A model generated the notes under the pieces. That model ran no database searches. It worked only from the letters and a program-made list of their open reading frames with translations, and had not been told where the DNA came from. 41,231 nucleotides of DNA from a virus. The number at the start of each line of letters is the position of its first letter. The stretch's first letter is position 1. The position numbers and the translations under genes were made by a program. The stretch spans positions 1-41,231 of the IMG/VR virus record IMGVR_UViG_3300034280_000763. The stretch is one strand, 5' to 3'. Shown piece by piece: positions 1 to 40,226 of this stretch.

Positions 1-174
1 GATGGCCGCCTATTCCCGCTCGATGGCCTCGAGGTGATCGCATGAGGGCCGCATGGGAGGAGCGCCCGGTCGAGGTAGTCCGGGAGGAGCATTACCGGAG
101 GATTAGGGATGCCCTGAACAGGCTCCGCGATCCGGAGGGTATGGCACGGCTCCTCGATGCCCGCTACCTGAAGA
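1..174. repeat. Left copy of terminal redundancy (circular overlap)
   Basis: Bases 1-174 match bases 41058-41231 with a single difference (G47 versus C41104). This is the signature of a circular or circularly permuted genome whose assembly was not trimmed. The unique unit is 41,057 bp. Confidence 0.97.
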
Positions 175-584
175 ATGGCGAGGGTTCATGGACTAATGCG
201 GCGCTAATGGCGGAACAGGCACCCGGCCAGATGGTCGAGAATCATTACGGATGGGTGAACCTTCACGGCATCCTAGTGCCTAAGGATCGGACGGCCGATG
301 TGTTCCTATCCGATGGCCGGATGTTGCCTAAAGCGTGTTGGTCACAGTTGCGGCTCGGCCTCGGAGGTGACTACCTCGAGACTCGAGGGGGCGGTCCCAT
401 CCCGGAATGGGATGGCGACTACTGCCGGATGCTTGCCGCCTCCTGGTCGAGCGCCGACGATCCCGAGGCCACCCCTGGGCGCCGCGTCCGGAGACTGAAC
501 CGATGGGCGCTCGAGGTCGAGCCTCGAGGAGTCGAGGGAACCCCGCTCGATAGGCCGGCGCTCGAGGATGCCATCCCATTCTGA
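42..584 (+). CDS. Hypothetical early protein with SSB-like C-terminal tip
   Basis: This 180-aa soluble protein belongs to no family I recognise. Its ATG overlaps the stop of the metallohydrolase gene that precedes it across the circular join (ATGA), so translation is probably coupled. The N-terminal third is rich in Arg and Glu; the middle is Gly-rich with several Trp. The last residues read LEDAIPF, which resembles the acidic -DDIPF tip by which bacterial and phage SSBs recruit partners; this is suggestive only. CTCGAG occurs about six times in the gene. The start of the right-hand copy (41099) encodes Ser instead of Arg at codon 2. A real gene is very likely; the function is unknown. Confidence 0.8.
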   Translation: MRAAWEERPVEVVREEHYRRIRDALNRLRDPEGMARLLDARYLKNGEGSWTNAALMAEQAPGQMVENHYGWVNLHGILVPKDRTADVFLSDGRMLPKACWSQLRLGLGGDYLETRGGGPIPEWDGDYCRMLAASWSSADDPEATPGRRVRRLNRWALEVEPRGVEGTPLDRPALEDAIPF

Positions 585-616
585 CCACGACAACAACGAG
601 AACAGGAGAACAGACC

Positions 617-940
617 ATGAACAGATACCGACTAGTGCGATCCGAAAAGCGGACAATCTGGAGCGGGAGCGGTGGCTCGATTCACCTCGAGAACCCGACC
701 ACCCTCGAGGAGGGAACACTCGCGGAGGTGATCGAGGCCGCGGTCGAGGAGGTGCGAGACACGCTCGAGTATGAAGTCGAGAGCGGCGACCTGCCCCGGG
801 CGGACCTGCCGAGGCCGGACAGTCTCCGGCGCTACCTAGGCCGGGAGATAGTCCGGATGGCGGGCGGCGATACCTACCCCCTGCCGCTGGACTCCGAGGG
901 ATTCTGGTGCCTGACGGTCGAGGAGGTGGAGAGCAACTAA
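617..940 (+). CDS. Hypothetical early protein, 107 aa
   Basis: The ATG at 617 follows an AGGAGAACAG ribosome site. The product starts MNRYRLVRSEKRT, has an acidic middle (TLAEVIEAAVEEVRDTLE, a likely helix) and ends EEVESN. No family is recognised. The stop TAA lies inside a copy of the dispersed motif AACTAAGACAA, and the gene is followed directly by the first tRNA-arm-like intergenic element. It sits second after the genome join in the rightward small-gene operon. Confidence 0.75.
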   Translation: MNRYRLVRSEKRTIWSGSGGSIHLENPTTLEEGTLAEVIEAAVEEVRDTLEYEVESGDLPRADLPRPDSLRRYLGREIVRMAGGDTYPLPLDSEGFWCLTVEEVESN

Positions 941-945
941 GACAA
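931..945 (+). repeat. 15-bp direct repeat, upstream copy
   Basis: GAGCAACTAAGACAA is repeated perfectly at 1031-1045, exactly 100 bp away. This copy spans the stop codon of the 617-940 gene and contains a perfect AACTAAGACAA. Confidence 0.9.
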
Positions 946-951
946 CAGCCC

Positions 952-1014
952 GGGGCGGTGGTTCCCCTGCTCGAGGTTCGATCCCTCGAGGCCCCCTTCC
1001 CGCAATACCGCGGG
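952..1014 (+). ncRNA. tRNA acceptor/T-arm-like RNA module 1 plus hairpin
   Basis: The outer stem GGGGC (952-956) pairs with GCCCC (991-995). Inside are a 13-nt unpaired strand (957-969), a 7-bp stem CTCGAGG/CCTCGAG (970-976/984-990) and a canonical T-loop TTCGATC (977-983). The two stems abut with no spacer, giving 12 stacked bp as in a tRNA acceptor/T-arm. A second hairpin follows, CCCGC-AATACC-GCGGG (999-1014), and then the shared leader. Module 3 keeps the inner 35 nt identical while both outer stems change with compensation, which supports a folded RNA. There is no anticodon arm and no CCA end, so it is not a tRNA. The role is unknown; processing or attenuation are candidates. Confidence 0.65.
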
Positions 1015-1033
1015 AGTCAATCCGAAACAGGAG
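1015..1033 (+). promoter_or_regulatory. Shared early leader, copy A (ribosome-binding leader)
   Basis: AGTCAATCCGAAACAGGAG precedes the 1045 gene. Related leaders stand at 1828, 2866, 3466 and 40195. The element ends in the Shine-Dalgarno core. No promoter is evident just upstream of this copy, only the RNA hairpin. Confidence 0.75.
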
Positions 1034-1045
1034 CAACTAAGACAA
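1031..1045 (+). repeat. 15-bp direct repeat, downstream copy
   Basis: Perfect copy of 931-945. It contains GGAG as the ribosome site, and its last base is the A of the start codon of the next gene. Confidence 0.9.
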
Positions 1046-1272
1046 TGACACGCAAGCACTACAGGCAACTAGCGGACACTCTGGGCCGGGCATACGCGGC
1101 CGGAGTCATGGCAGACAAGACCACCCCGGAGGGGGCCGGCCGATTCTTCGAGATACTCGAGGAGCTGGAGTCCTTCTGCCGGGCGGAGAACGCATCCTTC
1201 GACCGGACCCGGTTCCGGGAGGCGGTCGGCGTGGCGATCCGGGACGAGCAAGGCGAGGAGGTGGCGGCCTAA
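1045..1272 (+). CDS. Small conserved phage protein, MTRKHY type
   Basis: This 75-aa protein begins MTRKHYRQLADTL and has a FDRTRFREAVG segment near its end. The layout (Thr-Arg/Lys-Lys-x-Tyr start, central Glu-rich helix, FDRxRF end) resembles a short protein of unknown function common in actinobacterial and other phages. The ATG at 1045 is chosen because GGAG lies 9 nt upstream and the open frame further left runs through the structured intergenic element. Its TAA overlaps the next ATG (TAATG). Confidence 0.75.
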   Translation: MTRKHYRQLADTLGRAYAAGVMADKTTPEGAGRFFEILEELESFCRAENASFDRTRFREAVGVAIRDEQGEEVAA

Positions 1273-1514
1273 TGTCCACCTTCAGCATCAGCGTTAGCGG
1301 CATCCGAGTCGATTACGGGTTCAGTTACACCTACGACGAGACCATCGACGAGCGGCTCGAGCAAGCCCTCTATCACTACGGGGCGGCGCGGCTCGAGGAT
1401 GAAGTCGAGGCGGCCCTCGAGGAGGAGATCGCGGCCCTCGATGCGAAGGCTGCGGCTGCGGCCCGCACGATCCTCGAGACCTGGGCGCGGTCCCTCGAGA
1501 AGGGGGGCGAGTGA
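1272..1514 (+). CDS. Hypothetical early protein, 80 aa
   Basis: The ATG shares one base with the upstream TAA. The N-terminal part has a beta-like pattern (MSTFSISVSGIRVDYGFSY). The rest is a strongly acidic, Ala/Glu-rich helix that could form a coiled coil (about residues 30-78). CTC-GAG pairs recur in frame as Leu-Glu. No family is recognised. The stop TGA overlaps the next ATG. Confidence 0.7.
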   Translation: MSTFSISVSGIRVDYGFSYTYDETIDERLEQALYHYGAARLEDEVEAALEEEIAALDAKAAAAARTILETWARSLEKGGE

Positions 1515-1771
1515 TGCCCGGCCCCTTTGTCTGGATCAACACGAGCGGCGAGACCGCCTGCGGCGAGCGAGGTCACGGCGGCGGGGCGCTCGAGGCTGCG
1601 CTCGAGGCCGGCCTAGCAACCCCGATGGCCGGAGACCCCGGGCACCTCGAGGTAGCCACGGGCCTAAGCCATTGGATCGGGTTCCCTGGGGGGCGGTCGG
1701 TCCTGGGGCACGAGCGGCTCGAGTGCGAGTGGTGCGAGCGAGAGAGGGAGGAGGCGACGACCGGAAACTAA
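1514..1771 (+). CDS. Hypothetical early protein with CxxC near C-terminus
   Basis: The 85-aa product starts MPGPFVWINTSG. The ATG at 1514 is preferred over a GTG three bases earlier because it overlaps the previous stop (TGATG). Near the end, LECEWCERERE places two cysteines as CxxC after an upstream His, a possible partial metal site, but a complete zinc finger is not visible. It is the last gene before hairpin 1778-1810 and the internal promoter. Confidence 0.6.
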   Translation: MPGPFVWINTSGETACGERGHGGGALEAALEAGLATPMAGDPGHLEVATGLSHWIGFPGGRSVLGHERLECEWCEREREEATTGN

Positions 1772-1777
1772 GCGAGG

Positions 1778-1810
1778 CCCGGGGAGCGGTCGAGGTGGCC
1801 GCTTCCCGGG
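1778..1810 (+). terminator. Strong hairpin, likely terminator before internal promoter
   Basis: CCCGGGGAGCGG (1778-1789) pairs with CCGCTTCCCGGG (1799-1810) around a 9-nt loop; all 12 positions pair, one as G-U. No T-run follows, as is usual in high-GC genomes. It sits between a stop codon and a promoter, so terminator or insulator is the natural reading. Confidence 0.6.
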
Positions 1811-1812
1811 TG

Positions 1813-1821
1813 TGGTATAAT
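1813..1821 (+). promoter_or_regulatory. Extended -10 promoter (TGG TATAAT)
   Basis: TATAAT at 1816-1821 is a perfect -10 hexamer preceded by TGn. No -35 match is seen 17 nt upstream, consistent with an extended -10 promoter. The shared leader CAGTCAATCC begins seven bases after the hexamer, the same spacing as at the main promoter (TAGGAT 40183), so the leader probably begins at the transcript start. Confidence 0.7.
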
Positions 1822-1827
1822 CCCTAA

Positions 1828-1850
1828 CAGTCAATCCGAAACAGGAGGTA
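1828..1850 (+). promoter_or_regulatory. Shared early leader, copy B
   Basis: CAGTCAATCCGAAACAGGAG followed by GTA sits directly downstream of the TATAAT promoter. The AGGAGG at 1843-1848 is 8 nt from the GTG at 1857 and only 2 nt from the GTG at 1851, which decides the start of the next gene. Confidence 0.8.
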
Positions 1851-1856
1851 GTGAAA

Positions 1857-2792
1857 GTGTATGAAGGCTACGAGATAGAGACCCGAGGTGGGCTGGTCGC
1901 GCTCGAGTATTCCGAGCAGGACTGGGAGAACCCGCTCACCTGGTGGAGCATCAAGGAGCGGGGCAAGTGTGAGATGGCCTCGGTCCCGGGCGTGAGGTCC
2001 GGCGACCCCGGCGAGGTGACCTGCTCGAGGTGCGAGGGTAACGGAACCCTCGAGGCCACCGATGGGGAGGAGCCGGAGTGCCCCGACTGCGAAGGCTACG
2101 GGGTGCGGCCGGCCAAGAGCGAGGCGGAATGGTGCGCGGATCACGGCGCGGTAGCGGCTGTGCCCGTGTCCTACAACATGAACACCTCGCAACCGTGGAT
2201 TCAGACGGTCGATTGGGAGAACCTCGAGGATGCCGGTTCGATCCTCTACCTCGAGGAAGGCTACGGCCATACGACCGAGGTTATCGAGGCCCGGATCACG
2301 GACCTCTCTTTCGCTCTCGAGTATGGCTACTCGATAGTGACGGTCGGGGTAGACCCTGACTCGGACCTGCCCGAGGATGCGCTCGATGGATGGACGGGCG
2401 GCGGGGTTGGGATGATCCTGGGCCAGACCTCTATCAAGGAGGAGGCAGATCGGCAACTCGAGGATGCCACCGCATACCTGCGGGCAGAGATGGCCCGGAG
2501 GGAGGCGCTCGAGGCTCGAGGCGTGAAGGCTGGCGGCAGCCCGGAGGCGCGGCGAGTGACGCTCGACCGGGCAGACCTGCTCGAGGTTGCGCGGCACCTG
2601 GTGGCGGACCTCGAGAGTAGCGATCCCTACTGGACGCGGTGGGACGAGGAGGAGGACGGCGCGGACTCGGAGCGAGCGGCCCTCGTGCGGGCGGTCGAGT
2701 CGATCCGGACGGCGCTCGAGGAGGGAGGGAGCCTCAGGGTTCCGAGCGGGCCGGCCCTCGAGGTGCCCCCGCTCGAGGAGGTGACCAACTAA
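1857..2792 (+). CDS. Hypothetical early protein with DnaJ-type CxxCxGxG motifs
   Basis: This 311-aa acidic protein is the largest of the rightward arm. Around residues 56-80 it carries CSRCEGNG and CPDCEGYG, two CxxCxGxG repeats of the DnaJ zinc-domain type, probably binding one zinc ion. There is no J domain, so it is not a DnaJ. The remainder is helical and Glu-rich with many Leu-Glu pairs encoded by CTCGAG. The GTG at 1857 is chosen for Shine-Dalgarno spacing; the in-frame GTG at 1851 would add two residues. The TAA lies within an AACTAAGACAA motif. Function is unknown; nucleic-acid or protein binding through the zinc site is plausible. Confidence 0.75.
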   Translation: MYEGYEIETRGGLVALEYSEQDWENPLTWWSIKERGKCEMASVPGVRSGDPGEVTCSRCEGNGTLEATDGEEPECPDCEGYGVRPAKSEAEWCADHGAVAAVPVSYNMNTSQPWIQTVDWENLEDAGSILYLEEGYGHTTEVIEARITDLSFALEYGYSIVTVGVDPDSDLPEDALDGWTGGGVGMILGQTSIKEEADRQLEDATAYLRAEMARREALEARGVKAGGSPEARRVTLDRADLLEVARHLVADLESSDPYWTRWDEEEDGADSERAALVRAVESIRTALEEGGSLRVPSGPALEVPPLEEVTN

Positions 2793-2797
2793 GACAA
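2787..2797 (+). repeat. Dispersed motif AACTAAGACAA
   Basis: Perfect copy overlapping the stop codon of the 1857-2792 gene, in the direction of transcription. Confidence 0.85.
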
Positions 2798-2802
2798 TGG
2801 CC

Positions 2803-2857
2803 GGGGCCTGCGGCACCTGGGCGGTTCGACTCCGCCCGGCCCCTTCCCCTTCGGGGG
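2803..2857 (+). ncRNA. tRNA acceptor/T-arm-like RNA module 2 plus UUCG hairpin
   Basis: The outer stem GGGGCC (2803-2808) pairs with GGCCCC (2838-2843). A 10-nt unpaired strand (2809-2818) is followed by a 6-bp stem GGGCGG/CCGCCC (2819-2824/2832-2837) with T-loop TTCGACT (2825-2831). The stacked stems again total 12 bp. A second hairpin CCCC-TTCG-GGGG (2846-2857) has a stable cUUCGg tetraloop. The sequence differs from modules 1 and 3 but the architecture is the same, followed by the same leader. Confidence 0.6.
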
Positions 2858-2865
2858 GTAGTGAA

Positions 2866-2888
2866 CAGTCAATCCAAATGAAAGGAAG
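2866..2888 (+). promoter_or_regulatory. Shared early leader, copy C (diverged 3' part)
   Basis: CAGTCAATCC is intact, followed by AAATGAAAGGAAG in place of the usual GAAACAGGAGG. The AAAGGAAG is the ribosome site for the ATG at 2896. Confidence 0.7.
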
Positions 2889-2895
2889 TAAGACG

Positions 2896-3387
2896 ATGGC
2901 AAAGGAACAATCGGGAGAGAGCGGGATGATCCCGGCAGGTGAGTATTGGGTGGGCGATCCGTGCTACTGCTTCACGGATCACAACCGCTGGATGGCGCTG
3001 CTCGAGTCGGCCGACTACATGGGCGACCATGCCATCCTCGAGGCGGAGGCGGGAGGCGCAATCTTCGTGGCCTCACGGACTGCCCACGGAGACGGGCGCT
3101 ACTCGGACCAACGAGGCAGGAGTTACCCGGTAGATGCCGGCCTGCTCGGTGTCGTCCCGGTCGGCATGGAGGAGGAGCCGGAGTCCTGGGCGCGCTCGAG
3201 AGACGAGCTGCTCGCTCGAGTGACCTTCGAGCAACCGTTCCGGATCACCTACGACTGGGGCACCGTTCAGATCGGCCACCTCGTGATCGAGACCGACAAC
3301 GAGGAGGACGAGGAGGACGAGGAGGAGTGCGAGGAGTGCGGCTGGCTGCTCGACGACTGTAACTGCGAGGAGGTGGTCCCTGCGTAA
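2896..3387 (+). CDS. Hypothetical protein with GDPCY motif and acidic Cys-rich tail
   Basis: The product is 163 aa. The N-terminal region reads GEYWVGDPCYCF, a glycine-Asp-Pro-Cys-Tyr motif I associate with small phage proteins of unknown function. The middle is a beta-rich fold. The C-terminal 30 residues are extremely acidic (runs of Glu/Asp encoded by a GAGGAGGAC repeat) and contain CEECGWLLDDCNCEE, four cysteines that could bind a metal. The ATG at 2896 is chosen because of AAAGGAAG upstream and because the longer frame would translate through RNA module 2. Confidence is high that it is a gene, low on function. Confidence 0.75.
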   Translation: MAKEQSGESGMIPAGEYWVGDPCYCFTDHNRWMALLESADYMGDHAILEAEAGGAIFVASRTAHGDGRYSDQRGRSYPVDAGLLGVVPVGMEEEPESWARSRDELLARVTFEQPFRITYDWGTVQIGHLVIETDNEEDEEDEEECEECGWLLDDCNCEEVVPA

Positions 3388-3394
3388 CCCTGCT

Positions 3395-3456
3395 GCCGGC
3401 GGTGGTTCCCCTGCTCGAGGTTCGATCCCTCGAGGCCGGCGTCCCCAATACCGGGG
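3395..3456 (+). ncRNA. tRNA acceptor/T-arm-like RNA module 3 plus hairpin
   Basis: The outer stem GCCGGC (3395-3400) pairs with GCCGGC (3435-3440). The inner part is identical to module 1: a 13-nt strand (3401-3413), a 7-bp stem (3414-3420/3428-3434) and T-loop TTCGATC (3421-3427). The second hairpin CCCC-AATACC-GGGG (3443-3456) keeps the loop of module 1 but changes the stem. Compensated changes in two helices with fixed loops are direct evidence of selection on RNA structure. Confidence 0.65.
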
Positions 3457-3465
3457 ATTAGTGAA

Positions 3466-3482
3466 CAGTCAAACAGGAGGTA
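3466..3482 (+). promoter_or_regulatory. Shared early leader, copy D (shortened)
   Basis: CAGTCAAACAGGAGGTA lacks the TCCG of other copies. The AGGAGG at 3475-3480 is 7 nt from the GTG at 3488, the likely start of the next gene. Confidence 0.75.
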
Positions 3483-3487
3483 GTGAA

Positions 3488-3979
3488 GTGGCAACTAAGA
3501 CAATGACAACCGATACCTGGACGAGGAGCGAGGCTGCCGCGCTGTGGCTGCCGCGCATGGAGGCAGACCTCGAAGCGGTGTGGCGGGACAAGCCCCGTGA
3601 CCCAGGCTCCGGGGTGTTTCTCTCCGATGCGCTGCCGAGCGGGGCGCGGGTGGTGTTCGGGATCACGAGCCTTACCCCGATGGGGCGGAGGTGGTATGGC
3701 GTGGACTACAGAATCATGCTCGGCCACGACCTCGAGTTCCTCTACGCCACCATCGAGACCAGGCAAGTGACGACTGCCGGCAAGTGGGCCCAGGGGTGGG
3801 GATTCACCACCCCGGAGGTGACGGTCTACGGGCCCAGAGACTACGGGCGGGAGCGAGAACCGCACCTCTCGCTGAGTAGCGGCGACGCATACCCAGACAA
3901 CCTCGAGGTATTCCGCGGCCAGCTCGAGCTCGGGGAGATACTGCTCGACAGGCTCAGGCACGAGGGGGTGGAGGCATGA
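3488..3979 (+). CDS. Hypothetical early protein, 163 aa
   Basis: The GTG at 3488 has ideal spacing to AGGAGG; an in-frame ATG at 3503 lies 22 nt away and is less likely. The reading frame opens V-ATKTMTTD, where ATKT is encoded by the dispersed motif. The protein is a mixed alpha/beta chain with aromatic clusters (RRWYGVDYRIMLGHDLEFLY) and no motif I recognise. Its TGA overlaps the following ATG. Confidence 0.75.
   Translation: MATKTMTTDTWTRSEAAALWLPRMEADLEAVWRDKPRDPGSGVFLSDALPSGARVVFGITSLTPMGRRWYGVDYRIMLGHDLEFLYATIETRQVTTAGKWAQGWGFTTPEVTVYGPRDYGREREPHLSLSSGDAYPDNLEVFRGQLELGEILLDRLRHEGVEA
3493..3503 (+). repeat. Dispersed motif AACTAAGACAA
   Basis: Perfect copy inside the first codons of the 3488 gene, in the direction of transcription. 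Confidence 0.85.
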
Positions 3980-4128
3980 GCGAACCGACCTCAATCACGG
4001 AGTGGGCGGAAAGCGTGGGGCTCTCGCTCGAGCAGGCCCTCGAGGGCGGTGTCAGCGAGGACGACAACGGCACGGTCCACATCCCGAGGGATGTATGGAA
4101 GTGGCTACGGGCCCAGGGCAGGGTGTGA
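3976..4128 (+). CDS. Small 50-aa protein, HTH/excisionase-like size
   Basis: The frame reads MSEPTSITEWAESVGLSLEQ and ends RDVWKWLRAQGRV. The ATG overlaps the upstream stop (ATGA), and the next gene starts 2 bp after its stop, so it fits exactly between neighbours. The helix-turn-helix-like cadence (ITEWAESVGLSLEQALEGG ... IPRDVWKWLRAQ) resembles small MerR/Xis-type DNA-binding folds. That assignment is tentative. Confidence 0.65.
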   Translation: MSEPTSITEWAESVGLSLEQALEGGVSEDDNGTVHIPRDVWKWLRAQGRV

Positions 4129-4130
4129 GT

Positions 4131-4331
4131 ATGAACATCACCCCGATCCGACCAGGTGATCTAGTCCGCTGCGATGTGCGCGGGCAGAAGTTCGTGGCCG
4201 AGGTGGTAGGGAAGGAGGGCGGGGAGCTGGCGCTCGAGCCGGTGAACCGCCCCTTCATCCCTGCCTACAAGGTCAAGGCGCGGCAGGTCGTCAATCATTG
4301 GCGGCTGGCCGGCAGGAGGCGAGCCTCGTGA
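4131..4331 (+). CDS. Small beta-barrel-like protein, 66 aa
   Basis: The product starts MNITPIRPGDLVRC and continues with alternating hydrophobic strands (KFVAEVVGKEGGELALEPV), an SH3/KOW-like pattern, ending in a basic tail (RLAGRRRAS). The fold call rests on pattern only. The ATG lies 2 bp after the previous stop; the TGA overlaps the GTG of the next gene (GTGA). Confidence 0.65.
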   Translation: MNITPIRPGDLVRCDVRGQKFVAEVVGKEGGELALEPVNRPFIPAYKVKARQVVNHWRLAGRRRAS

Positions 4332-4507
4332 GTGGCGTCGAGCCGGGCAACCTCGGCCTAGACCGGATAGACGAGGGGCTCGAGGCTGCGCTCGAGGCCA
4401 TCGAGAAGGCGGCTGCCGCATATTGGGAGGCGCCCCTCGAGCTAACCCAGGAGGCGAAGGCCCTCGACCAGGCAGCGGCCATACTAAGAAAGGTGGTGGT
4501 CCCGTGA
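4328..4507 (+). CDS. Small helical protein, 59 aa
   Basis: The GTG at 4328 overlaps the upstream stop as GTGA. The product is an amphipathic Ala/Glu/Leu-rich helix from about residue 12 to the end (LDRIDEGLEAALEAIEKAAA), probably a helical hairpin. No family is recognised. Confidence 0.6.
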   Translation: MSGVEPGNLGLDRIDEGLEAALEAIEKAAAAYWEAPLELTQEAKALDQAAAILRKVVVP

Positions 4508-4767
4508 GTGGCGACCGGCCCGACCTTCAGGCAATCATTCGAGGCGTCGTGCGCGAGCGGTTCGCGGGCGTCGAGCCTGAGGACCGGGACACATCGTGGG
4601 AGGTGGGTGTCTACCTCGAGGGCGAGGTGTTCGACCATGTGTGGGACAATCTCCCTCGAGGCTACTCCCGCACCCTGATCGAACAGGCGTTGGCCCTGGT
4701 GGACTGGGCTCGAGTAGCGGATCACGCTACCTGGGAGCTAGACGACGACCAGGAGGAGGCAGCATGA
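4504..4767 (+). CDS. Hypothetical early protein, 87 aa
   Basis: The GTG start overlaps the previous TGA (GTGA) and the stop overlaps the next ATG. The protein is acidic with two likely helices (LQAIIRGVVRERF, SRTLIEQALALVDWARVAD) and ends DDDQEEAA. No motif is recognised. Confidence 0.65.
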   Translation: MSGDRPDLQAIIRGVVRERFAGVEPEDRDTSWEVGVYLEGEVFDHVWDNLPRGYSRTLIEQALALVDWARVADHATWELDDDQEEAA

Positions 4768-4961
4768 AGGAGACCATCCTCCGCCTGCGAGAGGCGGAGG
4801 AAGCAAGGCAGGCAGCGAGGCGCGACCAGGCGGCAGCGAGGCGCGAGGTTCAGCGGCTAATCAAACAGGCGAGAGAGGAGGGAATGACGGTGGTTGCGAT
4901 TGCGGAAGCCACCGGGATTAGCCGGGAGAATCTTCACCAGCTTCTAAGGCAGCCGTCCTAA
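4764..4961 (+). CDS. Small HTH DNA-binding protein
   Basis: The product is 65 aa. Residues 1-40 form a charged helix rich in Arg/Ala/Glu. The C-terminal part VVAIAEATGISRENLHQLLRQ is a clear helix-turn-helix of resolvase/sigma type (turn at TGIS). Last gene of the rightward operon. Its 3' end overlaps the end of the convergent leftward gene by 44 bp, so there is no room for a separate terminator. A regulator of the early arm is the obvious possibility. Confidence 0.75.
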   Translation: MKETILRLREAEEARQAARRDQAAARREVQRLIKQAREEGMTVVAIAEATGISRENLHQLLRQPS

Positions 4962-5481
4962 TCTCCTCCGCCTCGCCCTCGATCACGACTCCCTCCACCT
5001 GAACTCCCTTAGCGGCGAGGGCCCGGAAGATTTCCGGCAGCTCCCGCTTGTTCAGGTGGATGGAGGTCGGGTCGCCGTTGAGAAGGGCGGCCTTGTCTAC
5101 ATGGACTGCCCCGGCGATGGCGACATTCCTTAGTAGGGCGGCCTTGTCCTTCCCTGAAAGTTCGGCTATCTCCTGCTCGAGCTCGTCTATGGTCGAGTGT
5201 TCGAGGGCGGCGAGGCGCTCGGCCAGGTCCGTGTGCGTGTCGGCAAGGCGGGCCTTGATCTTGGGTGCTACCTCGGCGCGAATCTCGGCATAGCGATCCT
5301 TGTAGGTGTCCGGCCATCGGGCAAAGGTCGAGGCCGGCGGCACCCTGTCGAACAGCTTCAGCTCGACCAGGCGCTTCCGGGCCCGGCCCAGGTTTCCAGA
5401 CTCGAGGGCCAGGACTGTGAGAGCGGCCTCGATTTCCTCGGCCGTGTGCTTTGCGCGGGGGTGGGGAACGAGTGTGGTCAT
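4918..5481 (-). CDS. Putative terminase small subunit / HTH DNA-binding protein
   Basis: This 187-aa protein has an N-terminal HTH-like region (NLGRARKRLVELKLFDRVPPASTFARW). A helical middle contains LAERLAALEHSTIDELEQEIAEL, and then comes AALLRNVAIAGAVHVDKAALLNGDPTS. That last segment, with a conserved Asp-Lys and Gly-x-Pro-Thr/Ser, recalls small-terminase-like or HTH proteins of phages. If it is TerS it lies far from TerL (34792-36279), at the end of the leftward early operon. The start ATG at 5481 lacks a strong ribosome site. It could instead be a general regulatory HTH protein. Confidence 0.5.
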   Translation of the reverse strand: MTTLVPHPRAKHTAEEIEAALTVLALESGNLGRARKRLVELKLFDRVPPASTFARWPDTYKDRYAEIRAEVAPKIKARLADTHTDLAERLAALEHSTIDELEQEIAELSGKDKAALLRNVAIAGAVHVDKAALLNGDPTSIHLNKRELPEIFRALAAKGVQVEGVVIEGEAEEIRTAALEAGEDSPG

Positions 5482-5510
5482 GGTCTATTCCAGCCGGCGG
5501 GAAAAGGGGT

Positions 5511-5554
5511 GCCAGGGCGTCGAGCCGGGGAGGGGGTCAGCTCGACGCCCTGGC
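5511..5554. repeat. Perfect 15-bp inverted repeat
   Basis: GCCAGGGCGTCGAGC (5511-5525) and its exact complement (5540-5554) flank a 14-nt spacer. It lies in the 186-bp gap between the 5668 gene and the putative small terminase. It could be an intercistronic terminator or a binding site; there is no T-run. Confidence 0.85.
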
Positions 5555-5667
5555 GCATCATCACGCGGCCCCTATCGGGGTGGGATGAAGTCTTAGTAAG
5601 CATGGGGAGGGCTACAGCGTCGGCCGCGGGCCTCCGGGTATGTAGCGGGAGGCGCGTTGCGCTGCGA

Positions 5668-5853
5668 TCATTGTTCCACTCCGGTCGGATGCGTTATCCG
5701 CTCGACATACCAGCCTCGAGCAGCGAAGCCAGCAGCGAACGCCGCGGCCTCGGCTGCCGTCAGCGGTTGGGCCACGGTGTAGGGGGTGCCATCGGGCCGG
5801 ATACCGCACACCCGGTAGCGACCCTCAGTATCGGTAGGGGCTGTCCCAGTCAC
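5668..5853 (-). CDS. Small hypothetical protein, 61 aa
   Basis: A GTG start gives MTGTAPTDTEGRYRVCGIRP. The phrase DGTPYTVAQPLTAAEAAAFAAGF followed by ARGWYVERI looks like a small alpha/beta domain. It overlaps the end of the upstream gene by 29 nt and the ribosome site is weak, so confidence is moderate. Confidence 0.5.
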   Translation of the reverse strand: MTGTAPTDTEGRYRVCGIRPDGTPYTVAQPLTAAEAAAFAAGFAARGWYVERITHPTGVEQ

Positions 5854-6100
5854 GCTCGACGCTGCTCACTTTCTCGACACAACCCAGGCCGTCCGCCTGG
5901 TAGCGACCGCTTCGGCTAAGGGTTCCGGGTGGATCGGGCTGCCGCTTTATCTCGCGGAAGTCCTGCTCCCCCAGGTGAACCTCTATGTCGCCGTCCGGAT
6001 CGGGGATGCGGACTACCCAAAGGCCGGCCCACCCCTTCTTGACCAACTCGCCTACCCGGTTGTATTGGTCGTGCTTGCTGTTGGTGACGATCACTTTCAC
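5825..6100 (-). CDS. Hypothetical protein, 91 aa
   Basis: The GTG at 6100 overlaps the upstream stop (GTGA) and has GGAGAGGAG upstream, so the shorter frame is preferred over an ATG at 6142. The product reads VKVIVTNSKHDQYNRVGELVKKGWAG, then beta-like segments (LWVVRIPDPDGDIEVHL). No family is recognised. Confidence 0.65.
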   Translation of the reverse strand: MKVIVTNSKHDQYNRVGELVKKGWAGLWVVRIPDPDGDIEVHLGEQDFREIKRQPDPPGTLSRSGRYQADGLGCVEKVSSVERDWDSPYRY

Positions 6101-6830: not shown

Positions 6831-7940
6831 TCAAATCCGAACAGCCTCCGAACGGGGGGCATATCCCCTGGCCTCCCGGATGTAGTCATCCTCGCCCCAT
6901 CCCTCTCGAGGATCATCGGCGTAAAGGTGCTGGTAGGTGCGAAGCGATACGAGGGGCGAGTGGCCGAGCTGCGCGGCTACCCATGTATGGGTGCGACCGG
7001 AGGCGATGAACAGACTGGCCGCCGTGTGGCGCAGGGCGTAGGGCGTCAAGTCCCACCCGAGCCCCACCTCCTGCGCTGCCTTCTTGAATGACTTCCCTTC
7101 CATGCGGCCGCGCCAGTTGTTGTATTGCCCCTTGCTCCAGGGCTGGCCCTTGCGGTTCGGCCAGATCAGGTCGGAGCCGCTCGAGGTCTGAGACTGCCAA
7201 CCTCTTAGGTCGGCCTTCACGGTGTCCGGCACGAACACCCGCCGCCGGTAGTTCTGCCCCGTCTTGGAGCCGGCCTCGATTACCCCGTTCACATTCTTTT
7301 TGTTCACGGCGAGCCTATCCCCGAGGTCATCCCAAGTCAGGGCAAGGGCGTCCTGTGGTCGGATACCCACATAGGCGAGGACGGAGACGAGGGTGGCGGA
7401 GCCGAGGTCTCCTCGCTCGAGATACCAACCGCGGATAGCTTCCACATCCCGGGCGTCTAGCCACCTGGTCTGCTTCCGCTTGCGAACCGGGGAGGGCAGG
7501 GCCCTTACTGGGTTCGCGTCGAGGTATTGCCAGGGCAGGACGGCGTGATCGAGCACCTGGCCGAGTAGCGTCTGTGCCTTAGAGAGGGCGGTCGGGCCCG
7601 CGCCCGCGTCGATCCTCGAGGTCTGCCACTCCATGAGCATCGGCGGAGTCAGCTCCGAGACCTTGCGGTATCCGAGGAACGGGTCGATGTGGGTGCGAAC
7701 CAGCTCGGCGTATCCCCTGGTGGTAGACGGTGCCAAGTCCTTCGTCCGCTCCCATACCGGGATGAAGTCTCGAAGCGTCGGCACCTGGTGGCGGGGGATG
7801 GGGCCATAGCCGAGACGCTCCACCTCGAACTGTGCCTCCTGAGCCTGTCGCCGGTCGGCGTAGGTCCGGCTGCGGTTCCGGTTTCCCTCTCGCCAACGGA
7901 GTTCCCACTTACCGCTGCTTGTCTGATGGATGCTTGCCAC
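6831..7940 (-). CDS. int: Tyrosine-family integrase
   Basis: This 369-aa site-specific recombinase would integrate and excise the phage at the adjacent tRNA-like core. The N-terminus (SSGKWELRWREGNRNRSRTY) is the arm-type DNA-binding domain. A SAM-like core-binding domain follows (residues about 60-150). The catalytic domain shows GIRPQDALAL (first Arg), R304 in YALRHTAAS, H327 in LGHS and the nucleophile Y336 in TYQHLY. The usual His three residues before R304 is Tyr, a variant I recall from actinophage integrases. The GTG start has AGGAGG 6 nt upstream. It lies directly downstream of the excisionase-like gene. Confidence 0.95.
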   Translation of the reverse strand: MASIHQTSSGKWELRWREGNRNRSRTYADRRQAQEAQFEVERLGYGPIPRHQVPTLRDFIPVWERTKDLAPSTTRGYAELVRTHIDPFLGYRKVSELTPPMLMEWQTSRIDAGAGPTALSKAQTLLGQVLDHAVLPWQYLDANPVRALPSPVRKRKQTRWLDARDVEAIRGWYLERGDLGSATLVSVLAYVGIRPQDALALTWDDLGDRLAVNKKNVNGVIEAGSKTGQNYRRRVFVPDTVKADLRGWQSQTSSGSDLIWPNRKGQPWSKGQYNNWRGRMEGKSFKKAAQEVGLGWDLTPYALRHTAASLFIASGRTHTWVAAQLGHSPLVSLRTYQHLYADDPREGWGEDDYIREARGYAPRSEAVRI

Positions 7941-9893: not shown

Positions 9894-10119
9894 GGCTTAC
9901 CTCCTGGTTGGATTGACTGTCCTTGTAAACAACGGGTGCGTGGGGGAGCTGGCACAGGCCGGCCCCCGCCGCGTCAAGTTCAGAGTCGAGGGCGACCGTG
10001 AGAGCGTCGAGCGGCTCTGGCTCGCTCCCCATTTCGTGAAGGTCTCCGCTCGGGAGGATCACCTCCCATAGCCACACGCCTGCGGAATCACGCTCCACTC
10101 GGATTCGCGCCAGGTTCAT
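9886..10119 (-). CDS. Hypothetical protein, 77 aa
   Basis: The product starts MNLARIRVERDSAGVWLWEV and is a beta-rich domain. The ATG at 10119 overlaps the previous stop (ATGA), which fixes the start. No family is recognised. Its TAA stop uses the TAA of a CTAAGA motif that is also codons 2-3 of the next gene. Confidence 0.65.
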   Translation of the reverse strand: MNLARIRVERDSAGVWLWEVILPSGDLHEMGSEPEPLDALTVALDSELDAAGAGLCQLPHAPVVYKDSQSNQEVSHD

Positions 10120-40158: not shown

Positions 40159-40188
40159 TTGACAACCTGCCCCGGTATGTGTTAGGAT
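40159..40188 (+). promoter_or_regulatory. Main rightward early promoter
   Basis: TTGACA (40159-40164), an 18-nt spacer and TAGGAT (40183-40188): a perfect -35 and a good -10. It drives the small-gene arm that crosses the circular join. The shared leader CAGTC begins at 40195, seven bases after the -10. Confidence 0.85.
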
Positions 40189-40194
40189 GCCTAC

Positions 40195-40226
40195 CAGTCA
40201 ATCCGTTGTATCCGAAACAGGAGGTA
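40195..40226 (+). promoter_or_regulatory. Shared early leader, copy E (with insertion)
   Basis: CAGTCAATCCG, then an extra TTGTATCCG, then AAACAGGAGGTA. The extra bases partly repeat ATCCG. AGGAGG is at the usual distance from the ATG at 40231. Confidence 0.8.

Follow-up and report, generated by a model that had tools for sequence, protein, structure and literature searches.

A tRNA-like minihelix with a trailing hairpin ahead of genes in tailed phages, a candidate t-element of phage mRNA

The left end of a virus record of 41,231 bases (IMGVR_UViG_3300034280_000763), taken here at its full length as the window, carries three intergenic modules, M1 (952-1014), M2 (2803-2857) and M3 (3394-3457), located ahead of plus strand genes. 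The large terminase of the window is similar to terminases of bacterial phages, Cellulosimicrobium phage DS1 being one of the two best, one window protein includes a bacterial endolysin-type peptidase domain, and the proteins overall are not halophile-acidic. From its sequence, we take the virus for a temperate phage of a bacterium. Its integrase is encoded at 6831-7940, the three modules lying 3.4-6 kb from it, and no close relatives of the window were found in nucleotide, protein and leader searches.

Anatomy of the modules and chance controls

The elements of the three modules, all on the plus strand, are the following:

2803-2808, plus strand: M2, 5' strand of the outer (acceptor-like) stem, GGGGCC, from its pairing and from covariation in relatives
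2809-2818, plus strand: M2, one-sided strand of 10 nt, TGCGGCACCT, from alignments
2812-2813, plus strand: M2, GG at positions 4-5 of that strand, placed like G18G19 of the tRNA D-loop
2819-2837, plus strand: M2, T-arm GGGCGG-TTCGACT-CCGCCC, with a 6-bp stem (2819-2824/2832-2837) and a loop (2825-2831)
2838-2843, plus strand: M2, 3' strand of the outer stem, GGCCCC; a putative RNase Z cut is predicted shortly 3' of it
2846-2857, plus strand: M2, trailing hairpin CCCC-UUCG-GGGG (in DNA CCCC-TTCG-GGGG)
2867-2895, plus strand: M2, shared leader AGTCAATCC... with Shine-Dalgarno-like AAGGAAG, before the start codon (2896) of a PHROG 20074-like protein
952-995, plus strand: M1, tRNA-like minihelix with an outer stem of 5 bp, a 13-nt strand GGTGGTTCCCCTG, a T-stem of 7 bp and the loop TTCGATC
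998-1014, plus strand: M1, trailing hairpin CCCGC-AATACC-GCGGG, adjoining the leader (1015-1033); gene start at 1045
3394-3441, plus strand: M3, tRNA-like minihelix with an outer stem of 6-7 bp, a 13-nt strand, a T-stem of 7 bp and the loop TTCGATC
3442-3457, plus strand: M3, trailing hairpin TCCCC-AATACC-GGGGA; leader from 3467, gene start at 3488

Every module thus consists of an outer stem, a one-sided strand of 10-13 nt, a T-arm with the loop TTCGACT or TTCGATC, a trailing hairpin of 4-6 bp and a leader that starts with AGTCAA and carries a Shine-Dalgarno-like sequence, and all three sit ahead of this sequence and a start codon. Outer and inner stem together come to 12 bp in M1 (5+7) and M2 (6+6) and to 13-14 bp in M3. 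The modules are tRNA-like minihelices, with an acceptor-like stem stacked on a T-arm and the anticodon arm absent. An earlier note on this DNA had described M2 as an outer stem, a 10-nt strand, a 6-bp stem, the loop TTCGACT and a UUCG hairpin just ahead of the shared leader; every part was found where the note had placed it, with the leader beginning at 2867. The note had also proposed that shape is kept with little common sequence, and M2 does differ in sequence from the near-duplicates M1 and M3 while having the same form. M1 and M3 share 94% identity over 48 nt, presumably by a duplication of which M2 is not a part, so the modules count as two independent sequences, not three.

The shuffling control put forward in the earlier note has been run. 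Elsewhere in the 41 kb the composite structure occurs only as M1 and M3, and these three copies compare with a mean of 0.017 in 300 dinucleotide shuffles of the window; when the trailing hairpin was required, the three copies stood against none in any of the 300 shuffles. The hexamer CTCGAG is present 124 times in the window versus about 14 expected, with the highest density at 1-6 kb and 40-41 kb, mostly in coding sequence, and since the T-stems of M1 and M3 have it as their core, the control was repeated with Markov chains of order 3-5. They gave means of 0.01-0.035 copies per window and never reached three in 200 runs, and in the corresponding control on bases 1-6000 each of 1000 runs contained at most one copy, so that high-GC composition did not reproduce the structure at a similar frequency. 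Folding-energy z scores were -1.45 for M1, 0.19 for M2 and -2.16 for M3, and the minimum-energy fold of M2 keeps the T-arm and pairs the outer strands otherwise; as the M2 value is not significant, minimum free energy was dropped as evidence.

The leader AGTCAATCC is preceded by a module and its hairpin at M1-M3. Upstream of its copy at 1829 is a promoter-like -10 box (1816), and the copy at 40196 follows TTGACA-18-TAGGAT (40159-40188), so that a module and a promoter seem able to stand in for each other in generating a 5' end, as if the module replaced the promoter as its source. Other observations made on this leader are that copies of the form AGTCAATCC...AGGAGG occur with no tRNA-like module at 9918 (minus strand), 14417 and 40196, and that a 12-bp hairpin CCCGGGGAGCGG/CCGCTTCCCGGG (1779-1821, with two G-T/A-T pairs inside) stands directly before the extended -10 sequence TGTGGTATAAT and the leader at 1829.

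Relatives in haloviruses and haloarchaeal 5S leaders

A pattern scan with the strand of M1 and M3 led to one halovirus contig (L002), which was the one real locus for the pattern GTGGCGACC, the remaining matches being due to chance; the matches of the M1/M3 strand pattern in bacterial and archaeal genomes, mostly chance matches in coding sequence, were discarded. A structure scan revealed elements of the same layout ahead of genes in L002, HRTV-11, HHTV-2 and HCTV-2, and a covariance model (R1) built from M2 and four haloviral copies added HF2, HRTV-7, HRTV-8, HSTV-2 and HCTV-15. Among 16 aligned copies from the window and the haloviruses, double compensatory changes were found in 11 of 13 pairs, with 58 double-change cells versus 15 in shuffles. 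These copies were partly picked by structure, and more weight is therefore given to the features that were not selected. One of them is the GG, located at one fixed position of the strand in 15 of the 16 copies; the exception (L002, 6792-6834, minus strand) has AG for GG together with the T-loop TGCAACT, possibly a joint change on both sides of the elbow. The other is the trailing hairpin, present in 16 of 17 copies not selected for it against a background of 12%, in a sample that is effectively smaller since related copies are included. Loci fetched by the hairpin pattern itself had a hairpin in 4 of 15 cases, because many of them resemble ordinary tRNA 3' halves, and this set was left out of the hairpin statistic.

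The compensated variation bears on whether the modules act as DNA, as an operator, a stoperator-like site or a recombination site whose RNA fold is incidental. Many copies, in one orientation and intergenic, are also typical of the repressor sites of cluster A mycobacteriophages (PMC3029335), but the stem bases vary and compensate each other, so that RNA pairing is constrained rather than a DNA motif, and this explanation is very improbable.

An origin as a tRNA gene remnant, or as an attP copy derived from the 3' end of a tRNA, would account for the identical T-loop, and haloviruses do carry a tRNA-like attP, as HF2 does. ARAGORN detected no tRNA or tmRNA in the window or in the actinophage copies described below, however, and the 5' outer strand pairs and covaries with the 3' strand, several copies are present per genome and the modules are away from the integrase. 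Remnants are thus a most improbable origin, and attP was specifically rejected for the window modules, with three copies, paired 5' strands and 3.4-6 kb to the integrase. The HF2 attP and the 58-bp and 29-bp intergenic repeats of HF2 were found to be features distinct from the element. Rfam gave nothing above cut-off at the window elements (gathering and relaxed thresholds) or at the actinophage copies, and no intrinsic terminator, with a T run behind its hairpin, was found at the modules. As a separate observation, two IMG/VR contigs (L045 and L046) contain, near a match to GGTGGTTCC, odd tRNA-like genes with a large arm at the place of the anticodon arm.

In cellular genomes, R1 matched 54 of 145 Halobacteria versus 2 of 98 Actinomycetes, and 13 of the best loci were directly 5' of 5S rRNA, the 23S/5S context being confirmed by Rfam in five. 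The 5S rRNA of H. volcanii has an upstream tRNA-like t-element, which is reported to be processed by tRNase Z and so to give the 5' end of 5S rRNA; t-elements generally are described as substrates of RNase P and tRNase Z, and engineered copies free a crRNA in vivo (PMC4326828). In the reverse direction, a model made from the 13 cellular 5S t-elements only (R3) ranked M2 (E 0.0004), M3 (0.003) and M1 (0.007) first to third in the window, matching M3 over its full length with all helices, M1 partially, and M2 in the D-like strand and T-arm, with the outer stem not covered, which is counted against reading M2 as a t-element. A t-element stands directly 5' of the RNA to which it gives a 5' end, and this position was found for the three modules and for 14 of 14 copies in the actinophages Joe and Konstantine. 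In structure, the phage element belongs with the t-elements; we propose this kinship on sequence comparison, short of proven membership, with cleavage as an inferred property. Other haloarchaeal matches stand ahead of protein genes, and in several of these a trailing hairpin and an ATG come next. Among chromosomal copies just 5' of protein genes (L126, L131-L133, L145 and L150), several are ahead of signal-peptide-like starts.

Copies in phages of bacteria

A scan of viral contigs for T-arms with a GC hairpin behind them revealed several contigs, each having between one and three elements ahead of a Shine-Dalgarno sequence and ATG. One of them (L188) has a 43-bp stretch in common with cluster R mycobacteriophages and Streptomyces phages, and the element in these is the same one, with the copies GGGTG-actggcagcca-CCGGGG-TTCAAGG-CCCCGG-CACCC (Send513) and GGGTG-actggcagaca-CCAGGG-TTCGAGT-CCCTGG-CACCC (phiScoe2). 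BLAST with the phiScoe2 copy matched 794 places in 141 phage records, among them phages of Streptomyces, Mycobacterium and Gordonia, and the matches listed coincide with no annotated feature. A model built from window and haloviral sequences only (R2) found 8 copies in Joe, 7 in Konstantine and 11 in Send513 (26 in three cultured actinophages), the whole-record matches lying on one strand per genome. By structure scan, all the copies of Joe (7/7) and Konstantine (7/7) were intergenic, in sense orientation and 34-53 nt 5' of the next start; under the rule of the script, a trailing hairpin follows 7 of 7 in Konstantine and 3 of 7 in Joe. The actinophage stems showed double compensatory changes in 9 of 13 pairs, with 41 double-change cells versus 12 in shuffles. 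The shape with freely varying stems is therefore found in haloviruses, haloarchaeal 5S leaders and actinophages. Although M1 and M3 are near-duplicates, this supports the suggestion of the earlier note that duplication alone does not explain the modules. Elements of this type were also seen in two actinobacterial genomes (L152, 1501-1543; L153, 272-312 and 1501-1544), the two copies of the latter within one 2.6-kb contig, and these copies are perhaps mobile elements.

Proposed processing and comparison with known systems

The most probable explanation, in our judgement, is that the modules are t-elements in phage mRNA that would be cut by RNase P and RNase Z, so that the message of the next cistron would start with the hairpin. 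The module, with a short substitute for the D-loop, would be transcribed between cistrons in a polycistronic phage mRNA; host RNase P, recognising the elbow and the coaxial helix of about 12 bp, would make its cut at the base of the outer stem on the 5' side, and the RNase Z cut would come just past the 3' strand of this stem. Excision would part the upstream from the downstream cistron. The trailing hairpin would then form the start of the downstream mRNA, ahead of the leader and ribosome-binding site, and in this way the new 5' end may be protected and the start codon accessible. This explanation is based on the structure, the covariation, the fixed GG and T-loop, the position before start codons, the orientation on one strand and the trailing hairpin, and on identity at the model level with haloarchaeal 5S t-elements; from these we infer that phage mRNA is cleaved, by which enzymes, and that a hairpin end is of benefit. 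In model hairpins that consist of acceptor stem and T-arm, RNase P cuts at the canonical site (PMC11143913); it requires a T-loop-like loop, the D-loop being dispensable (PMC4919913), and it gauges the stack of T-stem and acceptor stem from the elbow to the cut (PMC4919913, PMC11143913).

Several results are counted against the proposal. No element ends in CCA, the outer stem being followed by CTT (M1), TTC (M2) and GTC (M3), and as CCA aids bacterial RNase P its absence weighs against the RNase P/RNase Z reading. The lack of a trailing hairpin in 4 of 7 Joe copies and the ordinary folding energy of M2 weigh against the mechanism. In HF2, a 5' end mapped by primer extension at nt 4384 was read as a transcription start (PMC8707807), and this end (T-4384) falls within the tRNA-like copy at 4375-4414 (NC_003345.2, L083), ahead of HrrHF2_035; either a promoter uses the site, or the end speaks against processing of that copy, and it is counted against processing.

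The distance of 34-53 nt to start codons and the conserved elbow (GG and T-loop) would also suit a tRNA mimic that stays uncut in the 5' leader and controls translation by binding a tRNA-recognising partner, such as the L1 stalk, EF-Tu, a modification enzyme or a phage protein, and the interdigitated T-loops of the L1 stalk likewise read tRNA elbows (PMC4919913). However, the element matches the cellular 5S t-element, which is reported to serve in processing, the distance to the start varies and a hairpin intervenes, which makes an uncut mimic unlikely. Distinctly unlikely is a mere mRNA-stability barrier, in which minihelix and hairpin would stop exonucleases or the entry of RNase E/J with no specific tRNA enzymes: GC-rich helices at gene boundaries, with a hairpin behind them, agree with such a role, but a plain hairpin would suffice, and the T-loop, the GG of the strand and the match to the 5S t-element are left unexplained.

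Taking processing as the preferred explanation, we lean towards a general tRNA-punctuation system of bacterial and archaeal tailed phages, widespread and unannotated, in which a minimal substrate of RNase P and RNase Z plus a hairpin, set between genes, would let the tRNA maturation enzymes of the host divide polycistronic phage mRNA into single messages that start with a hairpin. If this were true, host RNase P and RNase Z would routinely process phage mRNA in both bacteria and archaea, acting on a natural tRNA mimic of very small size; many structured intergenic repeats of actinophages (the 794 places in 141 records) would be accounted for, annotation would gain an RNA family that is new to it, and polycistronic mRNAs could be split with a part taken from nature.

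Some known RNAs are similar in part. The tRNA-like domain of tmRNA has an acceptor stem, a T-arm and a stemless D-loop; in the modules the coding part, the partner half and CCA are all absent, and both ARAGORN and Rfam were negative. A paper on marine methylophages that was considered deals with a tmRNA and a riboswitch, not with a phage minihelix. mascRNA/menRNA (RF01684) is a small tRNA-like RNA freed by RNase P and RNase Z; M3 scored 17.6 bits with a gathering cut-off of 42.5 and this identity was rejected, the RNA having, unlike the modules, a larger clover shape and a location at the 3' end of a long noncoding RNA. Plant mitochondrial t-elements are tRNA-like processing signals at mRNA ends, generally 3' ends, and they resemble the modules in being tRNA-like within mRNA, although they belong to an organelle and are likened by description, not by sequence. 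The C4 antisense RNA of phages P1/P7 and the M3 RNA of a phage are processed by RNase P (PMC11143913), but they are single regulatory RNAs rather than repeated punctuation, and they too are likened by description only.

The closest known system is the haloarchaeal 5S t-element, which has the same helix layout, a 10-nt strand with GG at positions 4-5, a 6-bp T-stem, the loop TTCGAYT and no anticodon arm. The phage elements differ from it in being located in phages, 5' of a protein gene and not of rRNA, usually with a trailing hairpin, and in an outer stem often of 6-7 bp versus 5. The t-element kind itself was thus already known, at haloarchaeal 5S rRNA; what is new, with respect to the open-access literature, is its presence in many copies in bacterial and archaeal tailed phages, usually trailed by a hairpin and before protein genes.
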